A stretch of 39,752 bases of DNA from a virus, in the IMG/VR virus record IMGVR_UViG_3300040815_000410, positions 1 through 39,752 of that record; one strand, 5' to 3'. The position numbers were made by a program, and so were the translations under genes. Shown here piece after piece: positions 3,114-38,851 of the stretch. Position 1 is the stretch's first letter; each line of letters starts with the position of its first letter. Under the pieces are notes generated by a model, which worked only from the letters and a program-made list of their open reading frames with translations, was not told the origin of the DNA and made no database searches.

Positions 3114-3118
3114 ATGAG

Positions 3119-5710: not shown

Positions 5711-5712
5711 CG

Positions 5713-5720: not shown

Positions 5721-5732
5721 GTAGAAAGAGTT

Positions 5733-7094: not shown

Positions 7095-7104
7095 TAATTT
7101 TGAT

Positions 7105-7112: not shown

Positions 7113-7128
7113 TAAAGAGGAATAACAA

Positions 7129-22140: not shown

Positions 22141-23002
22141 TATTGTATGCTCTCCAAACAACTTCAAATTTTTTATTGATAGCATGACATAGTACAACTG
22201 ATTTAGGTACAAAACCTTGATCAGAAAAGAAGTAATGCCATTTCTGATTTAACCATTGTATTGGTATATCATTTTCTGCTATCTTAACTGCAAACAATGT
22301 TTCATTATCCCAACCAAAAAAGTCTGTAATCTTTTTAGGATACATCTCATGGCCTTTAGTTAGTCTGCTCATTTCTGCCATATCAGAATCAAAGTTATCA
22401 AAGTATTTTAATTTTTGTATGTACTCTTTACTTGCACCAACAATACCTGTATTGACTACATGATGTTTAGGATTTAATTCTCTATCTAATAACATTGCTT
22501 GAGCGTTATAATATTTTGCTGTTGGACTACGAATAGTTTGTGATCTTTCAGTTACGTCTTCCATAGGAATAACTTTATGTGTATTGTGTTGTATCGCAAT
22601 ACCTTTTGATAAGTCCCATGCCTCAAAGAAATTATCACCGTGCATAGGTACTACATCAAAATCTAAATAAAGTATTTCATCATATTGTTCAGCAAGTTTA
22701 TAAAACAAATGTATCTTATAAAAATTTACTACATTGTATGCTGTAATATATGGATACTTTCTTTGCATATTTTCTTTATATAAGATAAAATCTACATCAT
22801 ACTCAAACATTTTAAAATCTACGCCCAATTGTTTTGCGTACCATTTTTTACAAGCTACTAATTTTGTATAATTTTGTTTAAAGGCATCCTTTGTAACATA
22901 ATTAATAGGTACAGATTTATTTGCTATTAATATATTCTTATCAAATATATCCAATTCTTCTTTTGGTATATCAATGTAAAAACTATATATTATTCTTTTC
23001 AT
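22133..23002 (-). CDS. Glycosyltransferase (GT8-like, DxD)
   Basis: 289 residues from the ATG at 23002; a TTG at 23014 would add four residues (MVNF) and is less likely, although neither start has a strong Shine-Dalgarno. The central AEQYDEILYLDFDVVPMHGD carries the DxD of GT-A enzymes of the GT8/GT32 type. HHVVNTGIVGASKEYI is the typical NTG loop, and DFFGWDNETLFAVKI the downstream acidic motif. The C-terminus (VVLCHAINKKFE) has the conserved His expected after the donor site. Overlaps the methyltransferase gene by 20 bases and the next transferase by 8, so it is part of a coupled glycan-modification set. Confidence 0.75.
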   Translation of the reverse strand: MKRIIYSFYIDIPKEELDIFDKNILIANKSVPINYVTKDAFKQNYTKLVACKKWYAKQLGVDFKMFEYDVDFILYKENMQRKYPYITAYNVVNFYKIHLFYKLAEQYDEILYLDFDVVPMHGDNFFEAWDLSKGIAIQHNTHKVIPMEDVTERSQTIRSPTAKYYNAQAMLLDRELNPKHHVVNTGIVGASKEYIQKLKYFDNFDSDMAEMSRLTKGHEMYPKKITDFFGWDNETLFAVKIAENDIPIQWLNQKWHYFFSDQGFVPKSVVLCHAINKKFEVVWRAYNNA

Positions 23003-23591
23003 AAAATTTACCAACTATCATAAATCTAGTTCCTCTATCATCTGTAATACTATCTTCAACTAATACTTTAGCGTTTTCAGGCAATTGATTTTTAAATTCT
23101 TCATTATCATTTACACAATTAACATGACCTTTTATATCAAACATATTATTTGATGTAAAGGCAAAGTAAGCATTAGAGTCATGTAGTGCTTTTAGTTCTT
23201 TCATAGGTTTCATATGCTCACAAGAAGTATTAATTATGAGATTAGCATATCGTATTCGTCCGTATCTATTTTCGTTGAACACATCACTTGTTATAAAATC
23301 TACATTTTCATAATGATTAAATATTCTACTTTTTGCCATACTAACAACAGCTTTATCTAAATCAATTAACGATATTCTTTTTGCTTCTTTTAAAGCAGGT
23401 ATCAATATACTGCCATACCAACCACCTAGTATCGTAATTTCAGATTTATCATTTACAACGTTTAAATCTCTAATATGAGATATTAATTTTTCTTTAGTTT
23501 TAAATTGATTAGGACTAAATGAATCTAAAAGATCATTATTGTGTCTGGCTTCTGCCATTATATTCTTAAACAGTTGTAAATCAATGTTCAT
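22983..23591 (-). CDS. SAM-dependent methyltransferase-like protein (class I)
   Basis: 202 residues. The Rossmann-type motif I appears as ITILGGWYGSILIPAL (Gly56-Gly60 region), followed by the acidic strand end RISLIDLDKAVVSMAKSR (Asp77/Asp79, ribose binding) and NVDFITSDVFNE (motif III). ANLIINTSCEHMKPMKEL occupies the catalytic loop. No DNA-methyltransferase (D/N)PP(Y/W) motif is present, so a small molecule, sugar or protein target is more likely. The start forms TAATG with the upstream PP-loop gene stop. Confidence 0.7.
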   Translation of the reverse strand: MNIDLQLFKNIMAEARHNNDLLDSFSPNQFKTKEKLISHIRDLNVVNDKSEITILGGWYGSILIPALKEAKRISLIDLDKAVVSMAKSRIFNHYENVDFITSDVFNENRYGRIRYANLIINTSCEHMKPMKELKALHDSNAYFAFTSNNMFDIKGHVNCVNDNEEFKNQLPENAKVLVEDSITDDRGTRFMIVGKFYEKNNI

Positions 23592-24460
23592 TATATTTTA
23601 TGAGCTGTAGATATTTTATATCTTTCCATTGTTTCTGGTGAATTGAAATCATAGACACCATATGCCCAATATTTTTCTCTACAAGGCCAACATATTTTAC
23701 ATGGTTCTTTACCTGGATTTCTATATGTTCTATTATGTTCTTTAGCATAAACAGGATACATATGTATTTCAGTTTCACATGATTCAGTAACAGGAAATAA
23801 AGTTTTATCAAGTCCCAACTCTCTTACCATATCTGCAACTTCTTTTTTATTCCAGTTACGAAAAGGTCTAAACTCATATTTGTGATGACCAAAATACTTA
23901 TCTCTAGTTTTAGAGAATAGTTTATCTTTTTTAGTATTTCTGTCATGTGGAAACTTTCTAAATTCGTGTGTGATGATTTCAGGTTGTTCTTCTACAGGTG
24001 GGTTTAAAGTTTCACCTGAAAGATATATGTTTAAGTTTACACCTAGTTTATGATACTTTTCCCACAATCCCCAAAAATGCTCTCTTTGAAAAATATCTTT
24101 CGGGTTATATTTTTGATTAGTTTTTTCCCAATTATCTATCATCTTTTGATTTTTCTTAAATCCTTCAGTTGTAAAAAACGCAATATCAGAATGTAAAAGA
24201 TTTTCATTTTCTGGTTTTAAGATACTTAATGCGTTAAGAACATTATCTACAACATCCATAGCTGCAGGTCTTAATTGGTTAAATAATGTAATTGGTAATA
24301 TTTTCTTATTAGGATATTTACTCATTGTGAGAAAACACAAGAACGCTGAGTCTATACCGCCACTCAACCTCATTCCTATTATATCTTGTTCGGATATTAT
24401 TTTGTCAATATCTGGTGTAAATACTTTATCTAGTATTTTGTTTAATTTTTCTATATCCAT
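23591..24460 (-). CDS. PP-loop ATPase, QueC-like with four-Cys zinc site
   Basis: 289 residues. IGMRLSGGIDSAFLCFL holds the PP-loop SGGIDS (33-38), which binds ATP and adenylates a carbonyl substrate. The C-terminal section has Cys228 (TESCETE) and Cys254, Cys257, Cys260 (EPCKICWPCREKYWAYG), the arrangement of the zinc site in 7-cyano-7-deazaguanine synthase (QueC). At 289 residues it is longer than QueC (about 230), and no QueD, FolE or guanine transglycosylase gene is seen here, so a preQ0 role is not assured; another amidation or nitrile-forming reaction is possible. GAAGGAGA precedes the ATG at 24460, which overlaps the nitroreductase stop by 10 bases. Confidence 0.75.
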   Translation of the reverse strand: MDIEKLNKILDKVFTPDIDKIISEQDIIGMRLSGGIDSAFLCFLTMSKYPNKKILPITLFNQLRPAAMDVVDNVLNALSILKPENENLLHSDIAFFTTEGFKKNQKMIDNWEKTNQKYNPKDIFQREHFWGLWEKYHKLGVNLNIYLSGETLNPPVEEQPEIITHEFRKFPHDRNTKKDKLFSKTRDKYFGHHKYEFRPFRNWNKKEVADMVRELGLDKTLFPVTESCETEIHMYPVYAKEHNRTYRNPGKEPCKICWPCREKYWAYGVYDFNSPETMERYKISTAHKI

Positions 24461-25152
24461 TTTATTATCTCCTTCATTTCAGGTTTAATATCTTCATGTT
24501 TTATTTTCCAATCTTCCATGTCTTCTTGTCTATATCTCTTAGCATATCCACAACTCATCATAACAATGGGTCTAGTGTCAACCATATTTAGGCCTGCTTT
24601 ATGCCAGTTATGTGGCCTTCTATTGAAACAAGAGTTATAAGATATATCAAGTCCTTCTTCTAACAAATAGTTTGTCAAGTTTGCAATGAATATACCTACT
24701 TCTACTGCAACACTATCAATTATCTTTTCTATATGACTTTCATGTGCTTGATCAAAGAAGTGACCTGTTTCAACTTGTTTCTGATAATAAACATTTGGTT
24801 GAGCAAGTCTGCTGTGTACCGTAATTAAATATGGGTTTTCTTTTACGTGTTTATAATATGGGTTTTCATATATACCTACTTTTGCGCCTTGAGTTTGTAT
24901 CGCTTGACCATCTTTAACTGCTTGATCTTCTACATCAGCATGACACTTCACTACTAAACCATGTATTGCCTCTTTCTCTTTCACTTTATCAGGTCCCCAT
25001 ACAAGTGCCTGATACGCCATTGCATTATTTTTAGACGGTGATGTTTTCCACGCCTTGTATAATGCTCGTTCTATAATTTCTTTAGGTGGAATATCTTTTT
25101 TATAAGTCTTTACGTGTTTTCTTTTTTGTTCTAATAAATCAAAATGTTTCAT
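24451..25152 (-). CDS. Nitroreductase-like protein, tandem copy B
   Basis: 233 residues. Nitroreductase fold: LLEQKRKHVKTYKKDIPPKE at the N-terminus (FMN phosphate-binding K/R position), ALYKAWKTSPSKNNAMAYQ (about 31-49), then IIDSVAVEVGIFIANLTNYL and the LEEGLDISYNSCFNRRP turn, and a C-terminal RPIVMMSCGYAKRYR. It is a paralogue of the adjacent upstream gene at 25156: the motifs, lengths and order match throughout, and stretches around 24647-24678 and 25349-25381 remain nearly identical in DNA. Such proteins usually work as dimers with FMN; two copies could form a heterodimer. Three bases separate the two genes. Confidence 0.78.
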   Translation of the reverse strand: MKHFDLLEQKRKHVKTYKKDIPPKEIIERALYKAWKTSPSKNNAMAYQALVWGPDKVKEKEAIHGLVVKCHADVEDQAVKDGQAIQTQGAKVGIYENPYYKHVKENPYLITVHSRLAQPNVYYQKQVETGHFFDQAHESHIEKIIDSVAVEVGIFIANLTNYLLEEGLDISYNSCFNRRPHNWHKAGLNMVDTRPIVMMSCGYAKRYRQEDMEDWKIKHEDIKPEMKEIIKWI

Positions 25153-25155
25153 TTT

Positions 25156-25845
25156 TTATACCCATGTAATTATATCCTGATGTTCAGGTTTTACATCTGT
25201 CTTATGAGCTGCACTTCCCATATGATTTCTTCTATATACTTCACCATAACCACAACTTAACATTAATATAGGTCTAGTTGTAATATTAGTCAATCCCCAT
25301 TTTTGCCAATATTTAACTTCTCTTGTAAAACAAGAATTATACGATACATCAAGTCCTTCTTCTAATAAATTGTTTGTTAAGATTTGAGCAAATAGTCCTA
25401 CTTCTACAGCAACACTATCAATTATTTTGCTCATATGGCTTTTGTGTGCTTGATCAAAAAACATACCTTTCTTTTCAATACTTTCTTTATGATATTCGTT
25501 AGGTGTAGCAAGTCTTTGATGAAATGTAAACATATAAGGATTAGTTCTTATATGTTCAAAATATTTGTTACCTGTAGATACTGATACAGCTAATCCTTCT
25601 TTTAATCCTGTTTTTTCAGTTTCAATGCAAGATTTTTGAGTTAGATTATATAATGCTTGTTTTTCAGATTTTTTATCAGGACCCCAAACAACAACCTCAT
25701 ATGCCATTGCATTGTTTTTTGAAGGAGTTGTTTTCCATGCTTTATATAATGCGTCTTCTATTATTTCCTTGTCTGGTATTTTATCACTATAATTGAATAC
25801 TTGTTTTCGTTTTGTTTCTAATAAATCAAACGTGTTCATTTGCAT
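25156..25845 (-). CDS. Nitroreductase-like protein, tandem copy A
   Basis: 229 residues, paralogue of the neighbouring copy at 24451. Shared blocks: LLETKRKQVFNYSDKIPDKE, ALYKAWKTTPSKNNAMAYEV, FFDQAHKSHMSKIIDSVAVE, LLEEGLDVSYNSCFTRE and RPILMLSCGYGEVYRR. The central section (about 60-110) is the least alike, so substrate preference may differ. ATG at 25845 is preceded by AAGG at a proper distance; a second ATG at codon 3 is possible. The start overlaps the end of the carbamoyltransferase gene by 10 bases. Reaction unknown; FMN-dependent oxidation or reduction of a small molecule or peptide ring is expected for the fold. Confidence 0.78.
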   Translation of the reverse strand: MQMNTFDLLETKRKQVFNYSDKIPDKEIIEDALYKAWKTTPSKNNAMAYEVVVWGPDKKSEKQALYNLTQKSCIETEKTGLKEGLAVSVSTGNKYFEHIRTNPYMFTFHQRLATPNEYHKESIEKKGMFFDQAHKSHMSKIIDSVAVEVGLFAQILTNNLLEEGLDVSYNSCFTREVKYWQKWGLTNITTRPILMLSCGYGEVYRRNHMGSAAHKTDVKPEHQDIITWV

Positions 25846-27341
25846 ATTACCTTTCCGTTAATTACTAACATGTCCAATTGTGTTCTCTTAAAGGTATTTA
25901 TTGCTTCTTTAGGACTCTCTACTATAGGCTCTCTACAATTAAAACTAGTATTCAATAACATTGGTATGCCTGTTATCTTATAAAACTCATTAATAATATT
26001 GTAAAACTTTTCGTTAAATTTTTTATTAACAGTTTGTATTCTTGCTGTATTATCAACGTGTGTAATACCTGGTACTGTATCTTTCTTAACTTTACATATT
26101 CTACTCATATAAGGACTAGGCAATCTCGTATCAAAATATTCTTTGTAATGTTCTTCTAATACAGCAGGTGCAAAGGGTCTAAAGTCTTCTCTCATTTTTA
26201 TAGTATGATTGATAATATCTTTAATATTAGGATTACGTGGGTCTGCAAGTATTGATCTATTACCTAATGCACGATTACCACTTTCTGATTTGCCTTGAAA
26301 CCACCCGACTATCTTACCATCAGCAATTGCCTGAGCAATCTTTTTATAGTCAGCGTCTTCGCCTACATTATGTTCGTATTCTATACCAGCAAATGTTTCT
26401 GTTTTATGTACATTATAATTTATCATATAATCAGCATGTTGATAAACACCTATTGCTTGTCCTTCATCACCTACAGCAGGTGGTACAAATACATTCTCAT
26501 AATGTTTTGTAAATTCTTCATTCATATATCCATTGTAAGCAACGCCACCTGCAATACATAAGTTATCACAAGTTTTTAATGGATAGACATATTCTTTTAT
26601 TTTATCTATTGTAAATTTTTGTAGTGTATGTGCTAAATCATCTATGTTGTCTAACTTAATCTGTTTAAAATGTGCTTGTTTCTTTTCAGTTATAGGTCCT
26701 GATAATATAGTTTCAAATATGTTGTAGTAGTATTCACTATATTTACCATACCCAACTTTACCCATTAACTTACTAGCACCTAGTGTGCCAAAACCTGTTA
26801 AGTTAGACATATGATTCCATAACCAACCAATAGGTAGTTTATCTGACAAGTCTATTAACTTTAGGTCTTTGTCAAAGAATACACATCTAAATTTTGATCC
26901 TATACCATCAATTGCTAGTATATCTGATTGTTCAAAATTAGAGTTTATAAAAGCATATGTGGCGTGTGATTGATGATGGTCTATATAATATATTCCGTCT
27001 TTATAATAATAGTCCCATAACGTTTTAGGATCATAATTAAATATTTCATCATGCCCTTTTAATGTTGTATTAAGTAATTCTTCTTTTGCTTTTCTTATAC
27101 CACCATAGGTATATGTAAATGCTAAAATACCATTGTCAGGTCTTTTAAAATACTTTTCAGTAAATTCATCATTCAATCTATAGTCGCCAGGATTTAATAT
27201 GTCTGATTGATGATCATATGCCTCAGCATGATAGGGTAGATTATGTTTAAATCTAGTAAATCTTTCTCTTTGATTATGAAAGACACCATCATATGTATTG
27301 TGGTCGTGTAAATTTAGTGCTACTGCAAATATTTTAGCCAT
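25836..27341 (-). CDS. NodU/TobZ-type O-carbamoyltransferase
   Basis: 501 residues. The family transfers a carbamoyl group from carbamoyl phosphate through carbamoyl-AMP to a sugar or antibiotic hydroxyl. The N-terminal Kae1-like domain has RERFTRFKHNLP, the metal-binding IDHHQSHATYAF (HxxxH), ILAIDGIGSKFRCVFF and CIAGGVAYNGYMNEEF. The C-terminal YrdC-like domain has GWFQGKSESGNRALGNRSIL, REDFRPFAPAVL and PMLLNTSFNCREPIVESP. The usual HDSSA near the N-terminus reads HDHNT here, and the protein is about 70 residues shorter than TobZ. All main catalytic motifs look intact. Related enzymes are known in marine myoviruses. Overlaps both neighbours by 8-10 bases. Confidence 0.88.
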   Translation of the reverse strand: MAKIFAVALNLHDHNTYDGVFHNQRERFTRFKHNLPYHAEAYDHQSDILNPGDYRLNDEFTEKYFKRPDNGILAFTYTYGGIRKAKEELLNTTLKGHDEIFNYDPKTLWDYYYKDGIYYIDHHQSHATYAFINSNFEQSDILAIDGIGSKFRCVFFDKDLKLIDLSDKLPIGWLWNHMSNLTGFGTLGASKLMGKVGYGKYSEYYYNIFETILSGPITEKKQAHFKQIKLDNIDDLAHTLQKFTIDKIKEYVYPLKTCDNLCIAGGVAYNGYMNEEFTKHYENVFVPPAVGDEGQAIGVYQHADYMINYNVHKTETFAGIEYEHNVGEDADYKKIAQAIADGKIVGWFQGKSESGNRALGNRSILADPRNPNIKDIINHTIKMREDFRPFAPAVLEEHYKEYFDTRLPSPYMSRICKVKKDTVPGITHVDNTARIQTVNKKFNEKFYNIINEFYKITGIPMLLNTSFNCREPIVESPKEAINTFKRTQLDMLVINGKVICK

Positions 27342-28203
27342 TTAATAACCTCGCATATTTTCTCATAGGAAAGTGACCTTTAGGTTCAACCCATTCCATA
27401 CATGTTTTACAATAGTTTTCATATTTAAACAATTGAAAATTCATCATCTTATCTACGTTTTCCTGTGTTATGTCAAATGTTTTTGAGTGAATAATATTAT
27501 TCGCAAATTTCTTACTACAATGTACAATCTTTCTTGTTTCAAAATTGATAACAGGTACCATAGGAAAGGCTGCACACATCTTACGATCTATTTCATCTGC
27601 TTGAGTATGTACTTCTAATACATCATCTTTGTTAGGTGTTCTACCATTAAATGATTTCCACATTGTATTCTTGTGATCTAACTGTTTCATTTCTTCAGGA
27701 AACAGATGTTTATATTTAAAAAAGTTAGGTGTTTTTACACATAGATTGTAATTGTTATAATCATTTTCTTTTATATAACCATAAGGTGGTAGTAAATCTA
27801 AACTACCAAGTTTTTTAATACCATCTTCGTAAAAATCTAATATGTTATGTTCAACATAAAGTATATCAGGATCTTTTAGTATATGTGGATATCTTTTACG
27901 TACAAAAGAGTTTGATAGTACTGAACACACATGATTAGGATTCTTTTTAACTTCAGCAATAACATCATCTAAATTCTTAATAAGGCCTGGCTCACCACCT
28001 AAAAGACAAACACGTATCTTATAATTTCTTAAATAGTGTAATGTTTGTTTTAGGAAATCAATATCAACTGTCAAGTTTCTCATCTCTAAAGTATAACTCG
28101 TACAATAATGACAATCTTTATTACATGACATTGACATAAAGAAGTCTATGGCTAAATAATTTTCTTGTATTTCTTGTAACGTTTTCAATTTCCTGCTCTC
28201 CAT
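27334..28203 (-). CDS. Radical SAM enzyme with C-terminal SPASM-like cysteines
   Basis: 289 residues. Cys27, Cys31 and Cys34 (SMSCNKDCHYC) form the CxxxCxxC [4Fe-4S]/SAM site; VCLLGGEPGLIKNLDDV holds GGEP at 69-72. In the C-terminal part Cys210 (KMCAAFPMVPVINFE), Cys229 (IVHCSKKF), Cys265 and Cys268 (YCKTCMEW) could bind an auxiliary cluster as in SPASM/twitch enzymes. So this one has both parts in a single chain, in the usual order, unlike its neighbours. It is compact (typical 350-400). It overlaps the radical SAM core gene just upstream by 19 bases. Substrate unknown. Confidence 0.82.
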   Translation of the reverse strand: MESRKLKTLQEIQENYLAIDFFMSMSCNKDCHYCTSYTLEMRNLTVDIDFLKQTLHYLRNYKIRVCLLGGEPGLIKNLDDVIAEVKKNPNHVCSVLSNSFVRKRYPHILKDPDILYVEHNILDFYEDGIKKLGSLDLLPPYGYIKENDYNNYNLCVKTPNFFKYKHLFPEEMKQLDHKNTMWKSFNGRTPNKDDVLEVHTQADEIDRKMCAAFPMVPVINFETRKIVHCSKKFANNIIHSKTFDITQENVDKMMNFQLFKYENYCKTCMEWVEPKGHFPMRKYARLLNG

Positions 28204-28808
28204 TTTTTACTAGGCAATAAAGGATCATTTTCACCATTTTGCCATCTACCAGATTTCATAACATAAAAATCAACACCTATATCTCTAGCCATTTGCTTAC
28301 ATGTATCTATATCGTTTTCATTATAGTTAAATACAATGTATTGCCACATAGGTTTTTTATATAGTATTTTAGTGGCTTCTTTCATAACTCTAAATAACTT
28401 TTCACCGTCTTGGTTGATACGATACTTATGGCTATCTTTAGGAAGACCATCTATAGAAAATCGCCACAACGCTCTTGGATTTGTTTTAAATGCTTCTATA
28501 TACCACTTTTCAGATTTAGCTGCACTAGCATGTTGAACAGCCACACTTATTTCTTTATCATAACACATCTTTAATATTTCTAAAAATTTAGGATGGTGCA
28601 CAGGATCTGAATATTGTCCTTCAAAGTTTATATGATTAAAATATTTTATTAACTTATTAAAACTATCTATAGGCACATCTACACCTGGTACTTTCTTACC
28701 TTCGTTTACATAATCCCATTGTCTTGCACAATTAGGACATAATAAGGAACATCTATGAGTAGTATCTAAATTTATTGCATCTCTTTTGATAAATTCTTTA
28801 TAGTTCAT
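28185..28808 (-). CDS. Free-standing radical SAM core, pair 2
   Basis: 207 residues. Cys20, Cys24, Cys27 (HRCSLLCPNCARQW) make the CxxxCxxC cluster site. In place of GGEP it has FEGQYSDPVHHPKFLEILKM, where SDP aligns with GEP. LWRFSIDGLPKDSHKYRINQ and MWQYIVFNYNEND are strongly shared with the core encoded at 31540. The chain stops after the radical SAM barrel and has no SPASM domain; that domain is encoded by the overlapping upstream gene (28805-29209), joined by ATGA. The two products may work as a complex. Length is about half that of ordinary SPASM enzymes. Confidence 0.82.
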   Translation of the reverse strand: MNYKEFIKRDAINLDTTHRCSLLCPNCARQWDYVNEGKKVPGVDVPIDSFNKLIKYFNHINFEGQYSDPVHHPKFLEILKMCYDKEISVAVQHASAAKSEKWYIEAFKTNPRALWRFSIDGLPKDSHKYRINQDGEKLFRVMKEATKILYKKPMWQYIVFNYNENDIDTCKQMARDIGVDFYVMKSGRWQNGENDPLLPSKKWRAGN

Positions 28809-29209
28809 TTTTTCTCTTTTGTGTATCTTTGTGAATAAGTAGATTTTTCATAATCTACTATATTTCCCTCTTTGTCATAATGAGTATCTTCTCTTGTTGC
28901 CTTAATAGGCGTTCCATCAGTTTTAGTACCACAAGTTTCTAAACATGCTAAACATGGTGGTATATCTTTTGTTAAAAGATCGTAAAATTCTTTCCATTCT
29001 TTAGTTTCAAATATGTCATCTATCTTGTTATAGTCTGATACCTTGCTAACTTTAACTAATGGTTGAAACCGAGGATCTCTCATATTCTTCTTACTATCAC
29101 AATAACAACAAGGTAGTAACTCACCTTTGTTTGACATAGCAAAAGGAAACTTTTCAAAACACATAGGTTTCATTTTTATGTTTTTTATATCTTTATATCT
29201 GTTGGTCAT
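28805..29209 (-). CDS. Free-standing SPASM/twitch protein, pair 2
   Basis: 134 residues, no radical SAM core. Cysteines lie as in SPASM/twitch auxiliary domains: Cys17 (KPMCFEKFPFAMSNKGE), Cys34, Cys35, Cys37 (LLPCCYCD), then Cys86, Cys89, Cys93 (PPCLACLETC). The DIFETKEWKEFYDLL helix is the standard iFn..ew..fr segment of SPASM domains. Closely related to the protein at 31212. Here the SPASM gene is upstream of its radical SAM partner, opposite to the other pair. The final 35 residues are hydrophilic and lack cysteine. It presumably binds one [4Fe-4S] cluster and helps place substrate in its partner. Confidence 0.75.
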   Translation of the reverse strand: MTNRYKDIKNIKMKPMCFEKFPFAMSNKGELLPCCYCDSKKNMRDPRFQPLVKVSKVSDYNKIDDIFETKEWKEFYDLLTKDIPPCLACLETCGTKTDGTPIKATREDTHYDKEGNIVDYEKSTYSQRYTKEKK

Positions 29210-30455
29210 AAAATTTATTAAAGGCTATCTTTAACTTTCTTTTGTTTTTAAATGGTTCTTCTTCTATGTAACCTGGTGTTTGATATATCTTCTCTACAAT
29301 ATATTCGTAGATAGGTTCTGTTGTTTCTTTTAGTAAACTTTTATCAAATAGATCATCACCTAATATTTTTTTCATATCATCTACAAATTGATCTTTCTTG
29401 TATTCTAACGTAAGTATGATTGTTTGAATAATCTTATTAACTTCTTGTTTAGTCATCCATGGGTGTATAGGTAAAGACAATATAGTATCACAAACTATTT
29501 TGCTTATAAACATATCATCTGCTCTATGTTCTATTTCTCTATACATTTTGTTTTCAGATAATGGTAACTCATAATGTACTTTTGCGTCTAATACTTTTTT
29601 AAGATTATCTCTAACTTCTTTATTTTGTAATCTGATAACATACTTGTGATAGTTATGGTCTAAACCATTTGTTGTAGGTTGTATTGTAACATATTCTTGT
29701 AATTGTTCATCATACATTTTAGCAATTTCTTGTCTTCTATTTTGCCATTCTTTCATCTTACTTAATCTAAAATTAATAAACTCGGCATTCATTAATAACA
29801 TTTTAGAGTTGTAACCTAATATCTCACGCTCACCATGTTTTCTTAACTTCTTAAACATCTCTGCTTTTTCTTTGTCATCTGTACAGATAGCCCCACCACC
29901 TGCAATCCCAGCAACAACTTTGTTTGCATTGAAACTTAATGTTGATATGTCACCTATTGATCCTGCCTTGACACCATTTAGACTTGCACCTAGTGATTGA
30001 GCTGCGTCTTCAATAAATGCGATATTCTTTTCTTTACAAAATTCTAATATCTCTTTTGTATCTGACATGTTACCAAATAGATGTGGATAAACAATTGCTT
30101 TTACTTTGTCCGAATACATACGTTTAATACTATCTAATGACATATGATAAGACAATATATCAATCTCACAAAATACAGGTGTTGCACCGACCATAGATAC
30201 ACAAGACGCTGAAGATATCCATGAGAATTGTGGTACTAATACCTCGTCACCTTTTCTTATACCTAAACTTCTTAAAGCAAAATGTAATGCGTCTGTGCCG
30301 TTACTACACGCAACAACATATTTTCTACCTGTGTATAGTTTAAGTTTATTTTCTAAAAACTCAACGTTTGCTTCCTGTTCTTTTTGCATTGACTTTTCAA
30401 AAAGTTGTAGATAATCAACTTTGTTTTCTTTAAAATCTCTATCCCAACATGTCAT
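29193..30455 (-). CDS. DegT/DnrJ/EryC1/StrS-type sugar aminotransferase
   Basis: 420 residues. PLP-dependent transamination of nucleotide keto-sugars, for amino sugars in surface glycans or antibiotics. Motifs: ACSNGTDALHFALRSLGI (49-66), EVLVPQFSWISSASCV, VYPHLFGN (123-129), AFIEDAAQSLGASLNG with Asp150 (PLP pyridine contact), and STLSFNANKVVAGIAGGG with Lys179, the Schiff-base lysine, where GIAGGG replaces the usual GEGG. After the normal end near residue 365 there is an extra tail of about 55 residues (EPIYEYIVEKIYQTPGYIEE), not part of the family. GAGG precedes the ATG. Overlaps the neighbours by 17 bases each. Confidence 0.87.
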   Translation of the reverse strand: MTCWDRDFKENKVDYLQLFEKSMQKEQEANVEFLENKLKLYTGRKYVVACSNGTDALHFALRSLGIRKGDEVLVPQFSWISSASCVSMVGATPVFCEIDILSYHMSLDSIKRMYSDKVKAIVYPHLFGNMSDTKEILEFCKEKNIAFIEDAAQSLGASLNGVKAGSIGDISTLSFNANKVVAGIAGGGAICTDDKEKAEMFKKLRKHGEREILGYNSKMLLMNAEFINFRLSKMKEWQNRRQEIAKMYDEQLQEYVTIQPTTNGLDHNYHKYVIRLQNKEVRDNLKKVLDAKVHYELPLSENKMYREIEHRADDMFISKIVCDTILSLPIHPWMTKQEVNKIIQTIILTLEYKKDQFVDDMKKILGDDLFDKSLLKETTEPIYEYIVEKIYQTPGYIEEEPFKNKRKLKIAFNKFYDQQI

Positions 30456-31215
30456 GTATAAACCTCGCTAGTTTTTGTTGTCCTTGTCTATTAGGATGTA
30501 AATCTATTTTTGATATTCTATCAGTAGTATTATCTAATACTTTATCAGATAAACTATAACCATTTAATCTTGGATCTGTAGGCCATCCTATAAAATTATT
30601 ATTAATTTTTTCATAATATGGACTATTGTGTATTTGTGCCAAGTACTCTTTTTCTCTTTTTTCTTTCCAATGTTTTTCATCAACTGTTAAATCTTCTGGT
30701 TTATTTAAAACAGGAATTTGTTTATTATCTAAAACTTGTTTTGTTCTTCTGTTGATAAGTTCTTGCCATAGATAACCTTTAAATAAATCTACCATTTGAA
30801 ATTGTTTATAAGGTAGTTTAAAATATTCACACACAGTTTGAAGACTATAATAATATCTTAATGACCTATCAATCCAATAATTCATAAAACCTTTTGTATC
30901 ATACATATCATTTGTCCATTTTGCTTTTTGTAAATATAAACTTTCTATCTGATAGTCACGTCTAGGTGCTGTACTCCAAGCTGCGATAACTAAACCTATT
31001 TTAGAGTGATCAATAGTTTGTAATTTATCAATTATATTGCTGTAGATATATTCTTGTCCTGCACCTGACTCACTAACATTTATAAGTTCCATATCTAATC
31101 TATCAGCAAGTAATTGTGGCCATTTAGGCCAACTAACATCTAATTCAGGATGGTGTATAGATGTAAATCTTTCGTTTGAATAACTACACCCAGCAACTAA
31201 TAATATTTTTTTCAT
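30439..31215 (-). CDS. SGNH/GDSL-family hydrolase-like protein
   Basis: 258 residues. Block I is ILLVAGCSYSNERF with Ser11 as likely nucleophile (GCS in place of GDS, common in phage members). ELINVSESGAGQEYIYSNII (about 43-62) supplies block II Gly and Asn. VIAAWSTAPRRDY covers the block III strand, where the usual GxND is replaced by AAWST. Block V is SKIDLHPNRQGQQKLARFI with Asp238 and His240. The family includes sugar O-acetylesterases and acetyltransferases. The long middle (about 90-210) is aromatic and charged, without known domains. ATGA overlap with the upstream SPASM gene. A role in removing or adding acyl groups on a glycan fits the context but is inferred. Confidence 0.7.
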   Translation of the reverse strand: MKKILLVAGCSYSNERFTSIHHPELDVSWPKWPQLLADRLDMELINVSESGAGQEYIYSNIIDKLQTIDHSKIGLVIAAWSTAPRRDYQIESLYLQKAKWTNDMYDTKGFMNYWIDRSLRYYYSLQTVCEYFKLPYKQFQMVDLFKGYLWQELINRRTKQVLDNKQIPVLNKPEDLTVDEKHWKEKREKEYLAQIHNSPYYEKINNNFIGWPTDPRLNGYSLSDKVLDNTTDRISKIDLHPNRQGQQKLARFIHDMLG

Positions 31216-31550
31216 ATTAAGTCTTCTATTTTTTGTCTATCTCTACCTGTTCTTTTCTTACAATGAGTAATACAAGTAGGTATGACTTTTTTTAAATTTT
31301 TTTCTGCTAAATTTCTTGCAAAATCTTGCCATTCTTTTGTTAGTAATATATCTTCAATACTATTATGATCACTTATTTTACTAACTTTTAACATCTCTTT
31401 CATAACAGGATGTTCTAACGCACTAGATTGATCCATCCAACAACAAGGTATTAATTCACCTCTATTAGTCATTGCAGCTTGCATACGTTTTTCTATTGAA
31501 CCATGTGCTGGCATACATCTAGGTTCTAATATTATTTTATCAGATGGCAT
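31212..31550 (-). CDS. Free-standing SPASM/twitch protein, pair 1
   Basis: 112 residues. Cys12 (EPRCMPAHG), Cys36-Cys37 (MTNRGELIPCCWMD), Cys93 and Cys97 (IPTCITHC) form the auxiliary iron-sulphur pattern; NSIEDILLTKEWQDFARNL is the typical SPASM helix. No SAM-binding core. It starts inside the end of the radical SAM core gene (11-base overlap, different frame), with the core upstream: the same order as a normal single-chain enzyme, but split. A frameshift in the overlap could in principle fuse them. It is a paralogue of the protein at 28805, which has one more cysteine after CC. Confidence 0.75.
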   Translation of the reverse strand: MPSDKIILEPRCMPAHGSIEKRMQAAMTNRGELIPCCWMDQSSALEHPVMKEMLKVSKISDHNSIEDILLTKEWQDFARNLAEKNLKKVIPTCITHCKKRTGRDRQKIEDLI

Positions 31551-32202
31551 TAAGTGATACCTCTTTATTCTTTGGTCTTAATGGGTCATCATTATCATTC
31601 CAACGTGATGATTGTACTAACATAAATCCTACACCATTTTCTTTTGCCATTTGTTTAGCTTCTTCAATATGATCTTCATTATAGTTAAATATAATATATT
31701 GCCAAACTGGTGTTACCTCTAAATGTTTTTTAGATTCAATCATTATATTAAAAAGTTTTTTACCATCTTGGTTTACTCTATACTTGTGACTTTCTTCTGG
31801 TAAACCATCTATACCAAATATCCATTGAGCATGTGGATTTGCTTTAAAACATTTTATAAAATATTCTTTAGATTTTTGTGAAGCTGCATTATGTATTTCA
31901 ACTATAGTCTTTTTCTTATACAACATTTCTAATATTTCAGGAAACTTAGGATGATGTACAGGATCAGATAATTGACCACAAAAAATAAAATCATTATAAT
32001 AGTCTGATATTTTATCTATTTCTTTTAAAGTAAGATCACGTCCTGGTACTTTTTTACCCTCGTTACGCCATTGTCTTTGTCTTTGACATCTAGGACATTC
32101 AAGTGGACACCTAAAACTTATATCAATATTCAATGATCTTCTACTCATAAAATATTGAATATCTTTAGTTATCTCTAACTCTTTTTGTATTTCTTTGCTC
32201 AT
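31540..32202 (-). CDS. Free-standing radical SAM core, pair 1
   Basis: 220 residues. Cys32, Cys36, Cys39 (SFRCPLECPRCQRQRQW) bind the cluster that cleaves SAM. FCGQLSDPVHHPKFPEILEM replaces the GGEP region, and WIFGIDGLPEESHKYRVNQ plus VWQYIIFNYNEDHIEEAKQM match the core at 28185 almost block for block; both also share NEGKKVPG after the cysteines. The chain ends without SPASM cysteines; the overlapping downstream gene at 31212 supplies that domain. ATGA overlap with the gene upstream. Likely a two-component radical SAM enzyme; substrate unknown. Confidence 0.83.
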   Translation of the reverse strand: MSKEIQKELEITKDIQYFMSRRSLNIDISFRCPLECPRCQRQRQWRNEGKKVPGRDLTLKEIDKISDYYNDFIFCGQLSDPVHHPKFPEILEMLYKKKTIVEIHNAASQKSKEYFIKCFKANPHAQWIFGIDGLPEESHKYRVNQDGKKLFNIMIESKKHLEVTPVWQYIIFNYNEDHIEEAKQMAKENGVGFMLVQSSRWNDNDDPLRPKNKEVSLNAI

Positions 32203-33059
32203 ATTAGTTTTAATAAATTTTTTACTTTATCTTTACTTTGTGTTAGGCAGATCACAGGCCTATTCCAATATACTTTGCCGCCATCATGTTTATATTTATT
32301 CCTTAAATAAACGACTTCTTTTTTGAGCCATCTAAACTCCATGAATAGTCTTGGAGCAGGATCAAAGTTAGGTTTTGTATAGACATATGTTTCAAACTTA
32401 CCTAATATATTTGTGATTGGCACCATTAGATTGTTTAGTTTAGGGTTTATAAATTTGTCGTTGTATGTTATAATACCGTGATCAGGATAATTATGTATAT
32501 GTTTTTCTACTTCTCTATAGTATATCTCATTTGTGCCTAAAAACAAATACTTAAATTGTATATCTTCTTTTATAGGTTTGTATATACTAAAGTTTATTAT
32601 CTTTTCAAATTGTTCTCCTACACCATTGACATATACATCATGGTCGCATAAGTCATAAACTTTTTTAGGTTTGAAATATTGTAACGCAATAGGATATTCT
32701 CTAACATGATTTTCAGAATATACAGATATAAGATTACCACTAAACAATAAATGTAAAGTTAGAAGTTGATCATTATTGTAAGTATGTTTATTTAAGTATG
32801 CTAAAGTTATTTGACTTCTACCCATAATCAATGTTATATCATTTGACGTAGGTGTGTAAAAATCAAATATTACATTTTCATATTTGACATAACATTCATT
32901 TAGAGCATTGATATAAGATTGTTCAGAAAATCTATGGTCTCTTATGATTATCAGTTTTGCTTTTACACCTAAATCATTCAGAAAACAACAATGTTCATAA
33001 CTATAATGTAGAAGACCATCACCAGGCTTACTTGTACATACTATATTTACATTTTTCAT
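32199..33059 (-). CDS. Glycosyltransferase-like protein, first gene of leftward operon
   Basis: 286 residues. The start reads VNIVCTSKPGDGLLHYSYEH, like the N-terminal loop of GT-B transferases. The C-terminal part has GKFETYVYTKPNFDPAPRLF followed by MEFRWLKKEVVYLRN, resembling the GT-B donor-site segment in which a Pro-Arg and Glu precede a Gly or Leu turn. No DxD is clear. Identification is by overall pattern and is tentative; other nucleotide-binding proteins are possible. The ATG at 33059 lies 5-6 bases downstream of a perfect sigma70 promoter and has no Shine-Dalgarno, so it may be translated from a leaderless message. Stop overlaps the radical SAM start (ATGA). Confidence 0.5.
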   Translation of the reverse strand: MKNVNIVCTSKPGDGLLHYSYEHCCFLNDLGVKAKLIIIRDHRFSEQSYINALNECYVKYENVIFDFYTPTSNDITLIMGRSQITLAYLNKHTYNNDQLLTLHLLFSGNLISVYSENHVREYPIALQYFKPKKVYDLCDHDVYVNGVGEQFEKIINFSIYKPIKEDIQFKYLFLGTNEIYYREVEKHIHNYPDHGIITYNDKFINPKLNNLMVPITNILGKFETYVYTKPNFDPAPRLFMEFRWLKKEVVYLRNKYKHDGGKVYWNRPVICLTQSKDKVKNLLKLI

Positions 33060-33064
33060 ACTAT

Positions 33065-33093
33065 ATTATAACACATTTTATTATATCTGTCAA
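33065..33093 (-). promoter_or_regulatory. Perfect consensus extended sigma70 promoter of the 18-gene operon
   Basis: On the minus strand TTGACA (33093-33088), a 17-base spacer ending TGT, then TATAAT (33070-33065): both hexamers perfect, optimal spacing, and a TGn extension of the -10. The expected start is at or within a base of 33059, the A of the first ATG. It should be recognised by unmodified host RNA polymerase, in contrast to the late promoters of the structural genes. Confidence 0.8.
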
Positions 33094-33104
33094 ATAGACG
33101 ACAC

Positions 33105-33112
33105 TATTTATT
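33105..33112 (-). promoter_or_regulatory. Possible late promoter upstream of the sigma70 promoter
   Basis: AATAAATA on the minus strand, matching the cyanophage late element NATAAATA. Expected start near 33099 with a leader of about 40 bases. It could keep the operon on late in infection, but a single 8-base match in AT-rich DNA is weak evidence. Confidence 0.35.
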
Positions 33113-33126
33113 GACTAAATAACTAT

Positions 33127-34296
33127 ATGATTTTAGACCAAAATATAGACTTTTCCAAGTTGAGAACATACAGATTAGATAGAGTAAAAAAAGAGCTAGA
33201 AAAACAAAATATAGAAGCCTGTATATTGTTTGATCCAGTTAATGTTAGATATGCGTTAGACACTACTAACATGAGTGTTTACAATTTACACAATTTAACA
33301 AGATATTGTTTTGTGCCAGTCAATGGACCAACAATTCTTTATGAGTATTTTGGTTGTGAATATCACGCTAAACATTTAAATCTAATTGACGAAATAAGAC
33401 CTGCAATCACATGGGATTATTTTAGTCATGGAGATCAGGCAGAAAAAGAATTAAAAAAATGGGTTAATGATATAAAAGATTTATCAAAATATTTTAAAAA
33501 TAAAAAAATCGCAATTGATGTAATTAATGGACCCGCTGTTACAGCATTGAATAAAGAAGGTATTGAAGTAGTTGACGCTAAATCAGTACTTGAACAGGCA
33601 AGAGTTATTAAATCACCAGAGGAACTAAAATGTATTAAAGAAGCAGTGAAAGTTGTAGAAATTGGTGTTACAAGAATGAGAGAAGAATTAAGAGCTGGCA
33701 TGACAGAAAATCAGTTATGGTCAATTTTACATAAAACAAATATTGAATATGGTGGTGAATGGATAGAAGGCAGATTATTAGCTTCAGGTCATAGAACAAA
33801 TCCTTGGATGCAACAATGTAGTCACAAAGTTATTGAAAGTGGAGAATTAGTAACTTTTGATACAGATACAGTTGCGTCTTATGGATACTTGGCTGATTTT
33901 TCCAGAGCTTTCGTTGAAGGAAATAAGTTTAGTGATTATCAGAAAAAATTATATTCAATTGCTGTTGAACAAATAAATCACAATTCAGAATTGATTAAAC
34001 CTGGTTTATCATTTAAAGAGTTTTTATCTAAATGTTATAAACTTCCAGAACCTTATTATGGTAATCGTTATCCTGCCATAGTTCATGGAACTGGTCTTTG
34101 TGATGAATGGCCATTTATTAAATGGAATACAGACGGCGGCGAACAAAGTGGACAATTTGAAAAAGATATGACTATTTCAGTTGAGGCATATGTAGGTGAA
34201 GTAGGTGGTAAAGAAGGTGTTAAATTAGAACAACAATTTCATGTTGGTGAAAATGGACTTGAATTATTATCCCACCATCCATTAGAGAATTTGTAA
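33127..34296 (+). CDS. M24-family metalloenzyme, DddP-like (DMSP lyase candidate) or Xaa-Pro peptidase
   Basis: 389 residues. An N-terminal creatinase/prolidase-type domain (about 10-155; IEACILFDPVNVRYALDTTN) precedes a pita-bread M24 domain (about 165-385). Metal ligands: Asp245, Asp247 and Asp257 (VTFDTDTVASYGYLADFSR), His320 (AIVHGTGLCDEWPF), Glu353 (TISVEAYVGE) and Glu368 (VKLEQQF). The DxD pair, its 12-residue distance to the third Asp, the 15-residue Glu-Glu gap and Asp326 six residues after the His follow the Fe-binding and catalytic pattern I recall for the DMSP lyase DddP, not that of prolidase or PepP. DMSP is a major substrate of SAR11 cells. Other M24 enzymes with FDTD exist, so activity remains open. 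Divergent from the leftward operon; no good promoter seen. Confidence 0.8.
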   Translation: MILDQNIDFSKLRTYRLDRVKKELEKQNIEACILFDPVNVRYALDTTNMSVYNLHNLTRYCFVPVNGPTILYEYFGCEYHAKHLNLIDEIRPAITWDYFSHGDQAEKELKKWVNDIKDLSKYFKNKKIAIDVINGPAVTALNKEGIEVVDAKSVLEQARVIKSPEELKCIKEAVKVVEIGVTRMREELRAGMTENQLWSILHKTNIEYGGEWIEGRLLASGHRTNPWMQQCSHKVIESGELVTFDTDTVASYGYLADFSRAFVEGNKFSDYQKKLYSIAVEQINHNSELIKPGLSFKEFLSKCYKLPEPYYGNRYPAIVHGTGLCDEWPFIKWNTDGGEQSGQFEKDMTISVEAYVGEVGGKEGVKLEQQFHVGENGLELLSHHPLENL

Positions 34297-34311: not shown

Positions 34312-35391
34312 ATGTTATTCGCAGATAATGTAGATAAAAAACTTTTACCTAAAAATATTCTTATATTAAATGCTCGTAAAAAAAATGAAACTATAGTAGA
34401 GTTTTGTTTAAAGTACGGCATTAATTTTAAGATGTTTGAAATAGCTAATAATAATCATTTTAATATAAGTGAAAAATTAAAACCATATACTACATATCTT
34501 CCAGAAAAGCAATTATATGATCCACAATATTATATAAAAAATTTAGATTTTGAACCTGAATATATTATTAATTTTAGAGATGAAGAACCATCAGTTAAAT
34601 TAGAATATCAACTTTCTCTTTACTATAATACTAAAACAAAATTTGATAAAAGAGCTTTAGAGTTTTTTATATCTAAAAAAGAACAAGACCGAGTAGCTAA
34701 ATTGATGGGTATACCTACTTTAGATGAAGGAGGACCTGATGATAAAATTATAGTAAAAACAGATTTAGGTAATTCAGGTGGTGGTGATGGTTATAAAATT
34801 GTTGACGCTAAAAAAAATCATATAGTACAACCAAATGATTTTATACAAAGATATATTGATTATGATTATACAATTGATCAACACTTTATAATTGATAATG
34901 AGGGTGAGTATCATATATATAATCATTTTTTAGGTAAATTTGGAGATGGTAATGTTGTAGGTAATAATATTGCATATCTGTATAAGTATCCATTTCCAAC
35001 TAATTGTTTTGAAGAAGAAGATATTGCTATAATACATGAGTTTTTTACAAAATTAAAAGATCATATAAGTGTTAGAAACAGGATTGGTATTTCAGAATTT
35101 TCTAAAGAAAGAAAGACTGGCAAATTACGTTTCCAAGAACTTAATTGTAGACCTTCTGGTGAATTTGAATTAGGAGGGTATGATTGGAATGCAGGTAAAT
35201 TTAATACAATAGTAGATTATTTTACAGGTAACATACAAGAAGAAATAGAATACTATCAACAAAGTACAGAAATATATTTTGATAATGTTTATAATAATGC
35301 AAAATTTGGTTGGGGAAACGGAGAGGGTTTAAAAATTGAGAGATTGCCCTTTAAAGAAAGAATAAAAGTATTTAATACAAAGTCAAAATAG
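34312..35391 (+). CDS. ATP-grasp ligase-like protein
   Basis: 359 residues. ATP-grasp signatures: DKIIVKTDLGNSGGGDGYKI (Lys149 and the Gly156-158 loop), DFIQRYIDYDYTIDQHFIID (about 177-195, adenine-side strand) and KLRFQELNCRPSGEFELGGY with Glu276, Asn278, Arg280 (Mg and phosphate binding). The first 110 residues form a pre-grasp region without recognised domain. Such enzymes join a carboxylate to an amine or thiol using ATP, for example in peptide or amino-acid ligation. It starts 16 bases after the M24 gene with AAGGA before it, so the pair is probably one transcript. Substrate unknown. It is the last gene of the metabolic block. Confidence 0.75.
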   Translation: MLFADNVDKKLLPKNILILNARKKNETIVEFCLKYGINFKMFEIANNNHFNISEKLKPYTTYLPEKQLYDPQYYIKNLDFEPEYIINFRDEEPSVKLEYQLSLYYNTKTKFDKRALEFFISKKEQDRVAKLMGIPTLDEGGPDDKIIVKTDLGNSGGGDGYKIVDAKKNHIVQPNDFIQRYIDYDYTIDQHFIIDNEGEYHIYNHFLGKFGDGNVVGNNIAYLYKYPFPTNCFEEEDIAIIHEFFTKLKDHISVRNRIGISEFSKERKTGKLRFQELNCRPSGEFELGGYDWNAGKFNTIVDYFTGNIQEEIEYYQQSTEIYFDNVYNNAKFGWGNGEGLKIERLPFKERIKVFNTKSK

Positions 35392-36415: not shown

Positions 36416-38851
36416 ATGGCAACAATTATAAAGATTAAACGAACCACAGGTGCTGTCGCACCTTCAGGTCTAGAGCAAGGGGAACTTGCCTACGTTTATG
36501 ATACATCGGCAGCCAGCACAGGCGCTGGTGGTAACGGATTACGACTATTCATAGGTGATCCATCATCAACATCAAATTCAGCAATTCAGATAGGCGGACA
36601 ATACTATACTCAATTGATGGACCATGCACATGGTACATTAACTGCTTCATCTGGTCTAATAGTAGATTCAAACAAGGCCATAGACGAATTATACATTGGT
36701 AATAATACCTCTACAGGTGGTACAATTAAGTTTAACGAAGGTACCGATAACGGTGCTCACTTCGTAGCATTAAAAGCTCCCAATAGTGTTGCAAGTAGTT
36801 TAACTTTTACTTTACCTGGCACAGATGGTTCTAATGGTCAATTCTTAAAAACAGATGGTTCTGGTAACTTAGCATTTGGTACAATTACATCTAGTTTTAC
36901 AATCGCTGCTGATAGTGGTACAAACGACACATTTAATACTGGCGAAACATTAACTTTTGCTGGTGATACAGGAATTACAACAACCGTATCAAACAATCAG
37001 ATTTCAATTGATTTAGATGACACAGCTGTAACTGCAGGAGATTATGGATCATCAACTGCAATTCCAACATTTACTGTGGATGCTCAAGGTCGTTTAACAG
37101 CGGCTGGTACTGCTTCTATATCAACAACATTAGATATTGCTGCTGATAGTGGTTCAGACGATGGTGTTAGATTAGGTACAGACACATTAACATTTACTGG
37201 TGGTACTGGTATTGATACTTCAGTTTCTGGTGATGCCGTAACTTTTGCTATTGATAGTACAGTTGCAACATTAACTGGTTCTCAAACATTAACTAACAAA
37301 ACAATTACAGCACCAAATGTTTCTGGTTTGCAAATTACTGATAGTTCAATTGTATTTGAAGGTTCAACAAATGACACAAATGAAACTACATTAACAGTAA
37401 CAGACCCAACGGCAGATAGAACAATTACTCTACCGAACGCTACTGGTACAGTTTCATTATTAGATAATACAGAAACATTAACAAACAAAACATTAACGTC
37501 TCCAGTTTTAAATGGCACATTAAGTGGTAGTGCATTTTTAGATGAAGACGATTTAAGTTCAGATAGTGCTACAGCAGTTGCTTCTCAACAATCTATTAAA
37601 GCATATGTTGACTCACAAGTAACGGCACAAGACCTTGACTTTCAAGGTGACTCTGGTGGTGCATTAAACATAGATTTAGATTCTGAAACACTTACAATCG
37701 CTGGAGGAACTGGTATTGATACATCTGGTTCTAGTAATACTTTAACAGTTGCGATTGATAGTACAGTTGCTACACTTACAGGATCGCAAACTTTAACAAA
37801 TAAAACATTAACAAGTCCTACATTAACTACACCTAGATTTGCTGACGCAGGCTTTATTGCTGACGCAAGTGGTAATGAACAGATACTATTTCAGCAAACT
37901 TCAAATGCTGTCAATGCTGTTGAAATTACAAACTCGGCTACAGGTAATGGTGTAACAATAGGAACTGCTGGTGATGATTCAAACATTGACTTAATACTTG
38001 ACCCTAAAGGTAGTGGTACTGTTGATGTTAATTCAAGTAGAATAACAAACGTAACTGATCCATCTTCAGCACAAGACGCTGCTACAAAAGCATATGTTGA
38101 TAGTGTTGCAAATGGTTTAGATGTAAAAGCTTCTGTTAAGTATGCTTCAACAGCAAACGTTGCTGGTACATACGATAACGGTGCTGGTACAATAACTGCA
38201 GGATCAAATGGTGCATTTTCAATTGACGGTGCAACACCTTCAACAAATGATAGAATTTTATTAAAAAATCAGACAGACGCAACTGAAAATGGTTTATATA
38301 GAGTAACAACTGTTGGTGATGGATCAACTGCATACGTATTAACAAGAACACCTGATGGTGATGAGGCAATTGAAATAACAGGTGGTGCTTTTGTATTCGT
38401 AGAAGCTGGTACTGCAAATGCTGACAATGGTTATGTATTTACACATAACGGTACTCCAACATTAGGAACAACTGATATAACAGTTGAACAATTCTCTGGT
38501 GCTGGTCAAATATCTGCTGGTGACGCTTTAACTAAAACAGGTAATCAGTTAGACGTTGCTGTAGATGACTCTACAATTGAAGTATCTTCAGACGCATTAA
38601 GAATTAAAACAACATATTCTGGTCAAACATCAATCACTACTTTAGGTACGATTGCAACTGGTACTTGGAATGGTACTGTTATTGACGAAGTATATGGTGG
38701 TACAGGACAATCTTCTTACACTACTGGTGATATTTTATATGCAAGTGGATCAAACACACTTGCTAAATTAGCACTTGGTAATAATGGAAAAATTTTACAA
38801 TCAAACGGTAGTAACGTAACATACGGCGATATTGACGGCGGAACTTACTAA
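36416..38851 (+). CDS. Large modular tail fibre protein
   Basis: 811 residues. N-terminal module IIKIKRTTGAVAPSGLEQGE (2-21) with LAYVYD and RLFIGD is a common marine-phage fibre head. The shaft repeats a unit of roughly 90-100 residues: a (T)LTFTGGTGIDTSVSGD strand pair, VAIDSTVATLTGSQTLTNKT and a short insert; the LTNKT core occurs three times (near residues 290, 360 and 460). PTADRTITLPNATGTVSLL and ITNVTDPSSAQDAATKAYVD with NGLDVKASVKYAST are standard fibre modules, the last ending in a domain with DRILLKNQTDATENGLYRVT. The C-terminus (IDEVYGGTGQSSYTTGDILY, LQSNGSNVTYGDIDGGTY) is the usual adhesin or assembly end. AGGGAGA precedes the ATG. Confidence 0.85.
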   Translation: MATIIKIKRTTGAVAPSGLEQGELAYVYDTSAASTGAGGNGLRLFIGDPSSTSNSAIQIGGQYYTQLMDHAHGTLTASSGLIVDSNKAIDELYIGNNTSTGGTIKFNEGTDNGAHFVALKAPNSVASSLTFTLPGTDGSNGQFLKTDGSGNLAFGTITSSFTIAADSGTNDTFNTGETLTFAGDTGITTTVSNNQISIDLDDTAVTAGDYGSSTAIPTFTVDAQGRLTAAGTASISTTLDIAADSGSDDGVRLGTDTLTFTGGTGIDTSVSGDAVTFAIDSTVATLTGSQTLTNKTITAPNVSGLQITDSSIVFEGSTNDTNETTLTVTDPTADRTITLPNATGTVSLLDNTETLTNKTLTSPVLNGTLSGSAFLDEDDLSSDSATAVASQQSIKAYVDSQVTAQDLDFQGDSGGALNIDLDSETLTIAGGTGIDTSGSSNTLTVAIDSTVATLTGSQTLTNKTLTSPTLTTPRFADAGFIADASGNEQILFQQTSNAVNAVEITNSATGNGVTIGTAGDDSNIDLILDPKGSGTVDVNSSRITNVTDPSSAQDAATKAYVDSVANGLDVKASVKYASTANVAGTYDNGAGTITAGSNGAFSIDGATPSTNDRILLKNQTDATENGLYRVTTVGDGSTAYVLTRTPDGDEAIEITGGAFVFVEAGTANADNGYVFTHNGTPTLGTTDITVEQFSGAGQISAGDALTKTGNQLDVAVDDSTIEVSSDALRIKTTYSGQTSITTLGTIATGTWNGTVIDEVYGGTGQSSYTTGDILYASGSNTLAKLALGNNGKILQSNGSNVTYGDIDGGTY

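Follow-up and report, generated by a model that had tools for sequence, protein, structure and literature searches.

The metal ligands of DddP, a dimethylsulfoniopropionate (DMSP) lyase, are Asp295, Asp297, Asp307, His371, Glu406, and Glu421, as given in a published paper (PMC4108388), and the sulfur of DMSP is bound by a tryptophan and a tyrosine, according to a review (PMC5395565). In a published account of pelagimyophages (PMC7029224), one genome region is termed the host-recognition cluster, and radical SAM cassettes are mentioned as well. Phages are known to carry auxiliary genes of host origin, and M24 is likewise a known family of metalloenzymes. Here, a viral DNA stretch of 39,752 nucleotides (IMG/VR record IMGVR_UViG_3300040815_000410, positions 1 to 39,752; referred to as the window) was analyzed, for which a preliminary description had proposed a phage-encoded M24 enzyme with DddP-type ligand spacing that might link infection with marine sulfur cycling.

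Genomic context of the M24 gene

The M24 gene occupies a position with variable content in related contigs, here called the slot. The features of the window considered in this study are as follows.

1257 to 8625, plus strand: T4-like baseplate genes (gp6-like, wedge, gp9/10-like, and gp8), which provide the viral context
18621 to 33059, minus strand: biosynthetic cassette (several radical SAM genes, a DegT aminotransferase, a NodU-type carbamoyltransferase, three nitroreductase-like genes, and a methyltransferase-like gene)
32199 to 33059, minus strand: conserved protein, left neighbor of the slot, present in 49 viral loci
33060 to 33126, no strand: divergent intergenic region of 67 bp, left border of the slot; the same border precedes the FrhB or the ATP-grasp gene in sister contigs
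33127 to 34296, plus strand: gene for a DddP-like M24 metalloenzyme of 389 amino acids, SAR11-derived (judged from open reading frame, Pfam, tree, and predicted structure)
34312 to 35391, plus strand: ATP-grasp-fold ligase-like protein of 359 amino acids, separated from the preceding M24 gene by 15 bp and bounding the slot on its right side
36416 to 38851, plus strand: tail-fiber-like protein, downstream of the slot

The nearest cultured relatives of the wedge-like protein belong to the pelagiphages Mosig EXVC030M and HTVC008M (approximately 42% identity). As the cultured phages that are nearest by baseplate protein infect Pelagibacter, this relationship fits a capture of the M24 gene from the host. 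The window and the pelagimyophage host-recognition cluster, as represented by Mosig EXVC030M, correspond in genome region and in cassette genes: most of the cassette is found in Mosig at the same place beside VrlC, with up to 82% protein identity. The 32-kb stretch of Mosig that was examined contained neither an M24 gene nor an ATP-grasp gene. In Mosig (59678 to 60954) and in contig L182 (1076 to 2667), the place beside the cassette is occupied instead by a fatty acid desaturase gene, and in Mosig also by a gene with an Asp_Arg_Hydrox domain.

Within the divergent region adjoining the M24 gene, a perfect sigma-70-type consensus (TTGACA, spacer of 17, TATAAT, with TG) lies on the minus strand at positions 33065 to 33093, upstream of the minus-strand cassette. 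A late-promoter-like motif before the slot, CTAAATAA, occurred at about the expected frequency (7 matches versus 5.6 expected; 1 versus 1.1 for its longer form).

The M24 protein and its predicted structure

The open reading frame at positions 33127 to 34296 starts with ATG and contains no internal stop codon, while the one reverse frame that was translated over it is full of stops. Its product matches the Pfam family M24 (PF00557) with 91.3 bits at a cutoff of 23 (E value 9e-26). As stated in the preliminary description, the metal ligands are Asp245, Asp247, Asp257, His320, Glu353, and Glu368 (offsets 0, 2, 12, 75, 108, and 123), and Tyr315 and Asp326 are present as well. The latter two are the equivalents of Tyr366 and Asp377 of DddP. 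The offsets that it had given for DddP (0, 2, 12, 76, 111, and 126) are likewise those obtained for both RlDddP and RdDddP.

Among solved structures, the best matches by sequence were DddP entries (E value 1e-74). The predicted model of the window protein (pLDDT 87.6) was superimposed by VIA-align on DddP with a Z score of 46 and an rmsd of 1.8 over 389 residues, the next family being the prolidases with Z scores of up to 34, so that the structural overlay suggested earlier does identify DddP as the closest fold; the model also reached Z scores above 30 with many M24 enzymes, i.e., the pita-bread superfamily in general. Compared with RlDddP (4rzy/4s01) and RdDddP (4b28), the fold, the six metal ligands, and the equivalents of Tyr366 and Asp377 are alike, whereas sequence identity is only approximately 33% and the ligand spacing differs. 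Moreover, the alignment starts at approximately residue 50 of DddP, and the window protein thus lacks most of the N-terminal extension of that enzyme.

Pairwise dN/dS values between nonidentical phage copies of the gene were 0.20 to 0.23, although few of these pairs are independent, since the L003 copy is identical to that of the window, L095 shows synonymous changes only, and L005 and L006 give the same values. The ratios suggest that the protein is kept functional by purifying selection.

The M24 fold that the model has in common with prolidases is compatible with a Xaa-Pro or related dipeptidase recycling peptides from host protein breakdown. We regard this function as quite improbable: the PepQ model NF040821 scored 75 bits at a cutoff of 630, too low for a Xaa-Pro peptidase; the Asp-x-Asp ligand pair of the DddP-like group is present in all DddP-like rows examined; RlDddP itself had no measurable Val-Pro activity according to a review (PMC5395565); and the host neighborhood described below is not related to peptides (65 SAR11 loci among the matches listed). 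The earlier argument that the Glu-Glu gaps of Xaa-Pro peptidases are much larger found no support in the sole well-aligned ordinary M24 row (L106), whose gap is 17 versus 15, the two other outgroup rows being misaligned.

Relationship to DddP

With the NCBIfam model for DddP (NF043017), the window protein scored 321.3 bits and its SAR11 ortholog 360.9 bits, against a cutoff of 600 that was passed in 6 of 289 alphaproteobacterial genomes. For phylogenetic analysis, 142 proteins exceeded a 150-bit filter; a first IQ-TREE tree comprised 70 rows, with near-copies omitted, and a second comprised 66 rows, from which the long-branch rows L106, L105, L097, and the second copy of L145 had been dropped. 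The phage proteins nest within SAR11 in both (support 98/89 and 100/94 in the 70-row tree, 98/89 and 100/93 in the 66-row tree). In the smaller tree, the 20 SAR11 and phage rows form one group (support 96/100) and the 17 DddP rows another (100/98), and the two do not mix. Forcing the two groups into one clade cost 37 log-likelihood units, with an AU p value of 0.052, by which a sister relation to DddP is disfavored, though not quite rejected. In a viral scan with an alignment of the DddP clade, no relative was found, a weak result given that its patterns would miss the window protein itself.

Ligand spacing turned out to be a poor marker and was abandoned as such: the exact spacing of DddP occurs in 28 of the 70 rows, including several that do not belong to its clade, and that of the window protein in 16 of the 70, with phage and SAR11 proteins among those listed. 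The ligands together with the Tyr and Asp residues are present across nearly the whole DddP-like group, including rows that are not DddP, and also in proteins annotated merely as Xaa-Pro peptidase family whose genes adjoin betaine-type genes. As this signature is common to the broad DddP-like group, it is not diagnostic of DddP.

The sulfonium-contacting tryptophan of RlDddP is taken here to be Trp95. The aligned position is a tryptophan in 17/17 rows of the DddP clade and in 25 of 29 other rows, and a tyrosine or phenylalanine in 17/17 rows of the SAR11 clade; in all three phage rows it is a tyrosine, which in the window protein is Tyr52. The loop around Tyr52 has pLDDT values below 50 in the model, too low for its geometry to be read. 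Tyrosine or phenylalanine at this place could still hold an onium group.

Thus, the parts of the original DddP reading that stand are the phage-encoded gene, the DddP-like fold and metal site, and DddP as the nearest protein of known function, while membership in the DddP clade does not: the protein falls among uncharacterized FDTD-type M24 proteins, i.e., in the SAR11 clade. A true DddP was ruled against by the profile cutoff, the clade, and the tryptophan, and was kept as a rival in view of the AU p value. Accordingly, it is unlikely that the gene encodes a true DMSP lyase by which the phage boosts the cleavage of DMSP to dimethyl sulfide and acrylate in SAR11. The presence of all six ligands and of the proposed catalytic Tyr and Asp, invariant in DddP, would agree with such a lyase, as would the wide margin by which DddP structures are nearest in both sequence and fold, the aromatic residue retained at the Trp95 position, and a sister relation that the AU test narrowly failed to reject. 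These points are set against the score of little more than half the equivalog cutoff, the placement outside the clade of DddP, and the replacement of Trp by Tyr; in addition, a review lists DddK as the DMSP lyase of P. ubique (PMC5395565). The neighborhood of the host genes, which also bears on this question, is described next.

Host origin and gene neighborhood in SAR11

The closest cellular proteins were encoded in SAR11 single-cell genomes, with 76% identity at best among the matches listed. Orthologs occurred in 23 of 147 Pelagibacteraceae genomes (an even draw, completeness not given), two of them as fragments. The SAR11 proteins share with the window protein the clade, the ligand spacing, and Tyr or Phe at the Trp95 position; their genes, however, are bacterial and reside in betaine-type catabolic clusters, whereas the phage carries its copy as a lone cargo gene. 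Located between phage genes and placed by the trees within a host group, the window gene has the genomic attributes of an auxiliary metabolic gene of host origin, and on sequence evidence it is a SAR11-derived, optional cargo of a pelagimyophage.

For the neighborhood analysis, the best 80 of at least 581 relatives from the genome scan were kept; 65 of these 80 loci were counted as SAR11, and the other 15 were left out. Neighboring genes were clustered and representatives named via Pfam or NCBIfam, often at scores below curated cutoffs (e.g., 127 of 670 bits for the GbcA model). Among these matches, 42 SAR11 loci had at least five genes mapped per side, and all 42 contained both the Rieske and the FAD-GcvT clusters, along with OpuAC (37 loci), homocysteine S-methyltransferase-like genes (36), ProW-type permeases (34), and HalD-like 2-oxoglutarate oxygenases (33), counts that are not independent because the SAR11 loci are kin. 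A carnitine-dehydrogenase-like gene (358 bits at a cutoff of 414) was found in 14/65 loci and 8/42 well-flanked ones among the matches listed. In 62 of the 65 loci listed, M24 and the gene upstream of it share a strand, with a median gap of 1 bp. Overall, the set of neighbors has the makeup of a pathway for a methylated, charged nitrogen compound. Outside SAR11, M24 homologs on plasmids adjoin genes of the trimethylamine methyltransferase family, sarcosine oxidase, and glycine betaine ABC genes, and another plasmid homolog lies beside a gene annotated as an aromatic ring-hydroxylating dioxygenase.

With respect to the DMSP lyase alternative, an enoyl-CoA hydratase gene is nearby in 48/65 SAR11 loci and in 36/42 well-flanked ones among the matches listed, and it would equally suit acrylate or acryloyl-CoA derived from DMSP; the host neighbors as a whole are of the betaine type and not acrylate-specific. 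DMSP cleavage by the window protein is a less favored possibility, and the proposed link to DMSP breakdown is not supported. As to other substrates and known enzymes, literature searches on homarine returned no gene-level paper, and a paper on glycine betaine demethylation, in its available part, reports that SAR11 has Bhmt but not MtgC, and makes no mention of the word peptidase.

A variable slot in the phage genome

The M24 gene was seen in seven contigs, including the window. Fifteen contigs had both slot borders; seven of them (the window and six others) carry the M24 gene between these, three carry an FrhB-like gene, and five neither. Contig L159, whose slot is empty, retains just the initial 16 bases of the M24 gene, which indicates that the gene was lost there and is dispensable.

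The FrhB/FdhB-like slot gene (421 amino acids, SAR11-like; L156, 1202 to 2467; L157, 2733 to 3995; L158, 757 to 2031) is approximately 67% identical to SAR11 genes near M24 and 46% identical to the immediate neighbor of the M24 homolog on a Pseudomonas plasmid. Of the 147 Pelagibacteraceae genomes, 20 contain FrhB, and 16 contain both FrhB and M24, versus approximately 3 expected (Fisher p 1e-12); in 12 of these 16, the two genes are on one contig within 10 kb, although FrhB lies within the flanks of only 4/65 SAR11 loci among the matches listed. This linkage in the hosts suggests that the slot takes up either of two genes from a single host neighborhood, or contained both at an earlier time. 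An FrhB-like gene is also found in another viral setting, in L174 to L176, where that of L174 adjoins DNA polymerase B, RecA-like, and radical SAM genes.

The ATP-grasp gene at the right border is present in 23 viral loci, mostly without M24. Its product had no match in Pfam, PHROG, or NCBIfam and only weak ones in a PDB sequence search; a fold search with the model, whose mean pLDDT is only 67, gave an ATP-grasp fold with a Z score of 15.5 and an rmsd of 4.5 to 4.7 over 291 to 296 aligned residues. In a second phage lineage, the ATP-grasp gene directly follows the cassette genes on one strand.

Because the phage copy lies outside the host cluster and 15 bp from the ATP-grasp gene, the M24 protein might instead serve the cassette of the phage itself, e.g., by trimming or rearranging the product of the ATP-grasp ligase, with modification of the surface or of the virion as a conceivable purpose. 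We consider this as improbable as DMSP cleavage. The proximity of the two genes and the divergent arrangement of M24 and the 14-kb radical SAM/aminotransferase/carbamoyltransferase cassette are consistent with such a role; however, eight of the 15 slots lack M24, three of them holding FrhB instead, most of the cassette occurs without an M24 gene in the cultured phage Mosig, and the remnant in L159 marks the gene as dispensable.

A second virus with a DddP-like M24 gene

Contig L097 (IMGVR_UViG_3300031886_000791), which carries a T4 portal gene (Portal_T4), encodes OpuAC, an ABC permease, an AMP-binding-like protein, a DddP-like M24 protein, and TauD consecutively at positions 2066 to 7398. OpuAC and the permease are approximately 41% and 54% identical, respectively, to their counterparts in the SAR11 cluster, and the row probably represents phage-borne genes for osmolyte uptake and breakdown. 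Like the window, L097 thus combines a T4-like virus with a DddP-like M24 protein; its copy is 37% identical to the window protein, however, and forms a long branch outside the SAR11 clade, so that a separate acquisition is likely. L097 lends separate support to a link between M24 and the uptake of betaine-type compounds.

Proposed role

With moderate confidence, we propose that a T4-like pelagiphage acquired a SAR11 metabolic gene and has retained it as an optional auxiliary gene for the catabolism of onium osmolytes of the betaine type. The product would be a dinuclear-metal enzyme belonging to the DddP-like branch of M24, and its SAR11 ortholog would act as part of a gene cluster for the uptake and breakdown of methylated, positively charged osmolytes, presumably comprising a glycine-betaine/carnitine-type ABC transporter, a Rieske oxygenase, FAD/folate demethylases, and, in some loci, a carnitine-dehydrogenase-like enzyme. 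Judging from these neighbors, the M24 enzyme most likely cuts a C-N bond in a betaine-type osmolyte or one of its breakdown products, either by hydrolysis or by a DddP-like elimination. By analogy with DddP and M24 enzymes, the metal pair may hold the carboxylate, Asp326 may act as the base, and Tyr315 and Tyr52 may point toward the onium group. In infected cells, the copy carried by the phage may add flux to the osmolyte route, yielding nitrogen and one-carbon units.

A more far-reaching proposal, which we put forward tentatively, is that SAR11 and its phages share a new DddP-like branch that cleaves a nitrogen onium osmolyte, as the C-N counterpart of the DddP reaction, together with a swappable slot for genes of this host cluster, so that infection would directly redirect osmolyte nitrogen and methyl groups. 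Full-text literature searches, with results judged mostly from their listings, returned no report of a DddP-like gene in a virus, of pelagiphages carrying such a gene from SAR11, or of a slot swapping the genes of one host catabolic cluster.

SAR11 bacteria live mostly on small organic compounds, some of them methylated, and the phages that infect them rank among the commonest viruses. The occurrence of DddP-like M24 genes in seven phage contigs, and in L097 beside a betaine-type transporter, suggests that viruses act on this carbon, nitrogen, and possibly sulfur economy. The uncharacterized SAR11 cluster, with its Rieske and FAD-GcvT genes in every well-flanked locus among the matches listed, is a clear target for further study, and surveys should heed that DddP-like ligand patterns alone do not mark DMSP lyases. 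If both the C-N-cleaving branch and the swappable slot are real, infection would redirect osmolyte nitrogen and methyl groups in the most abundant bacteria of the ocean.
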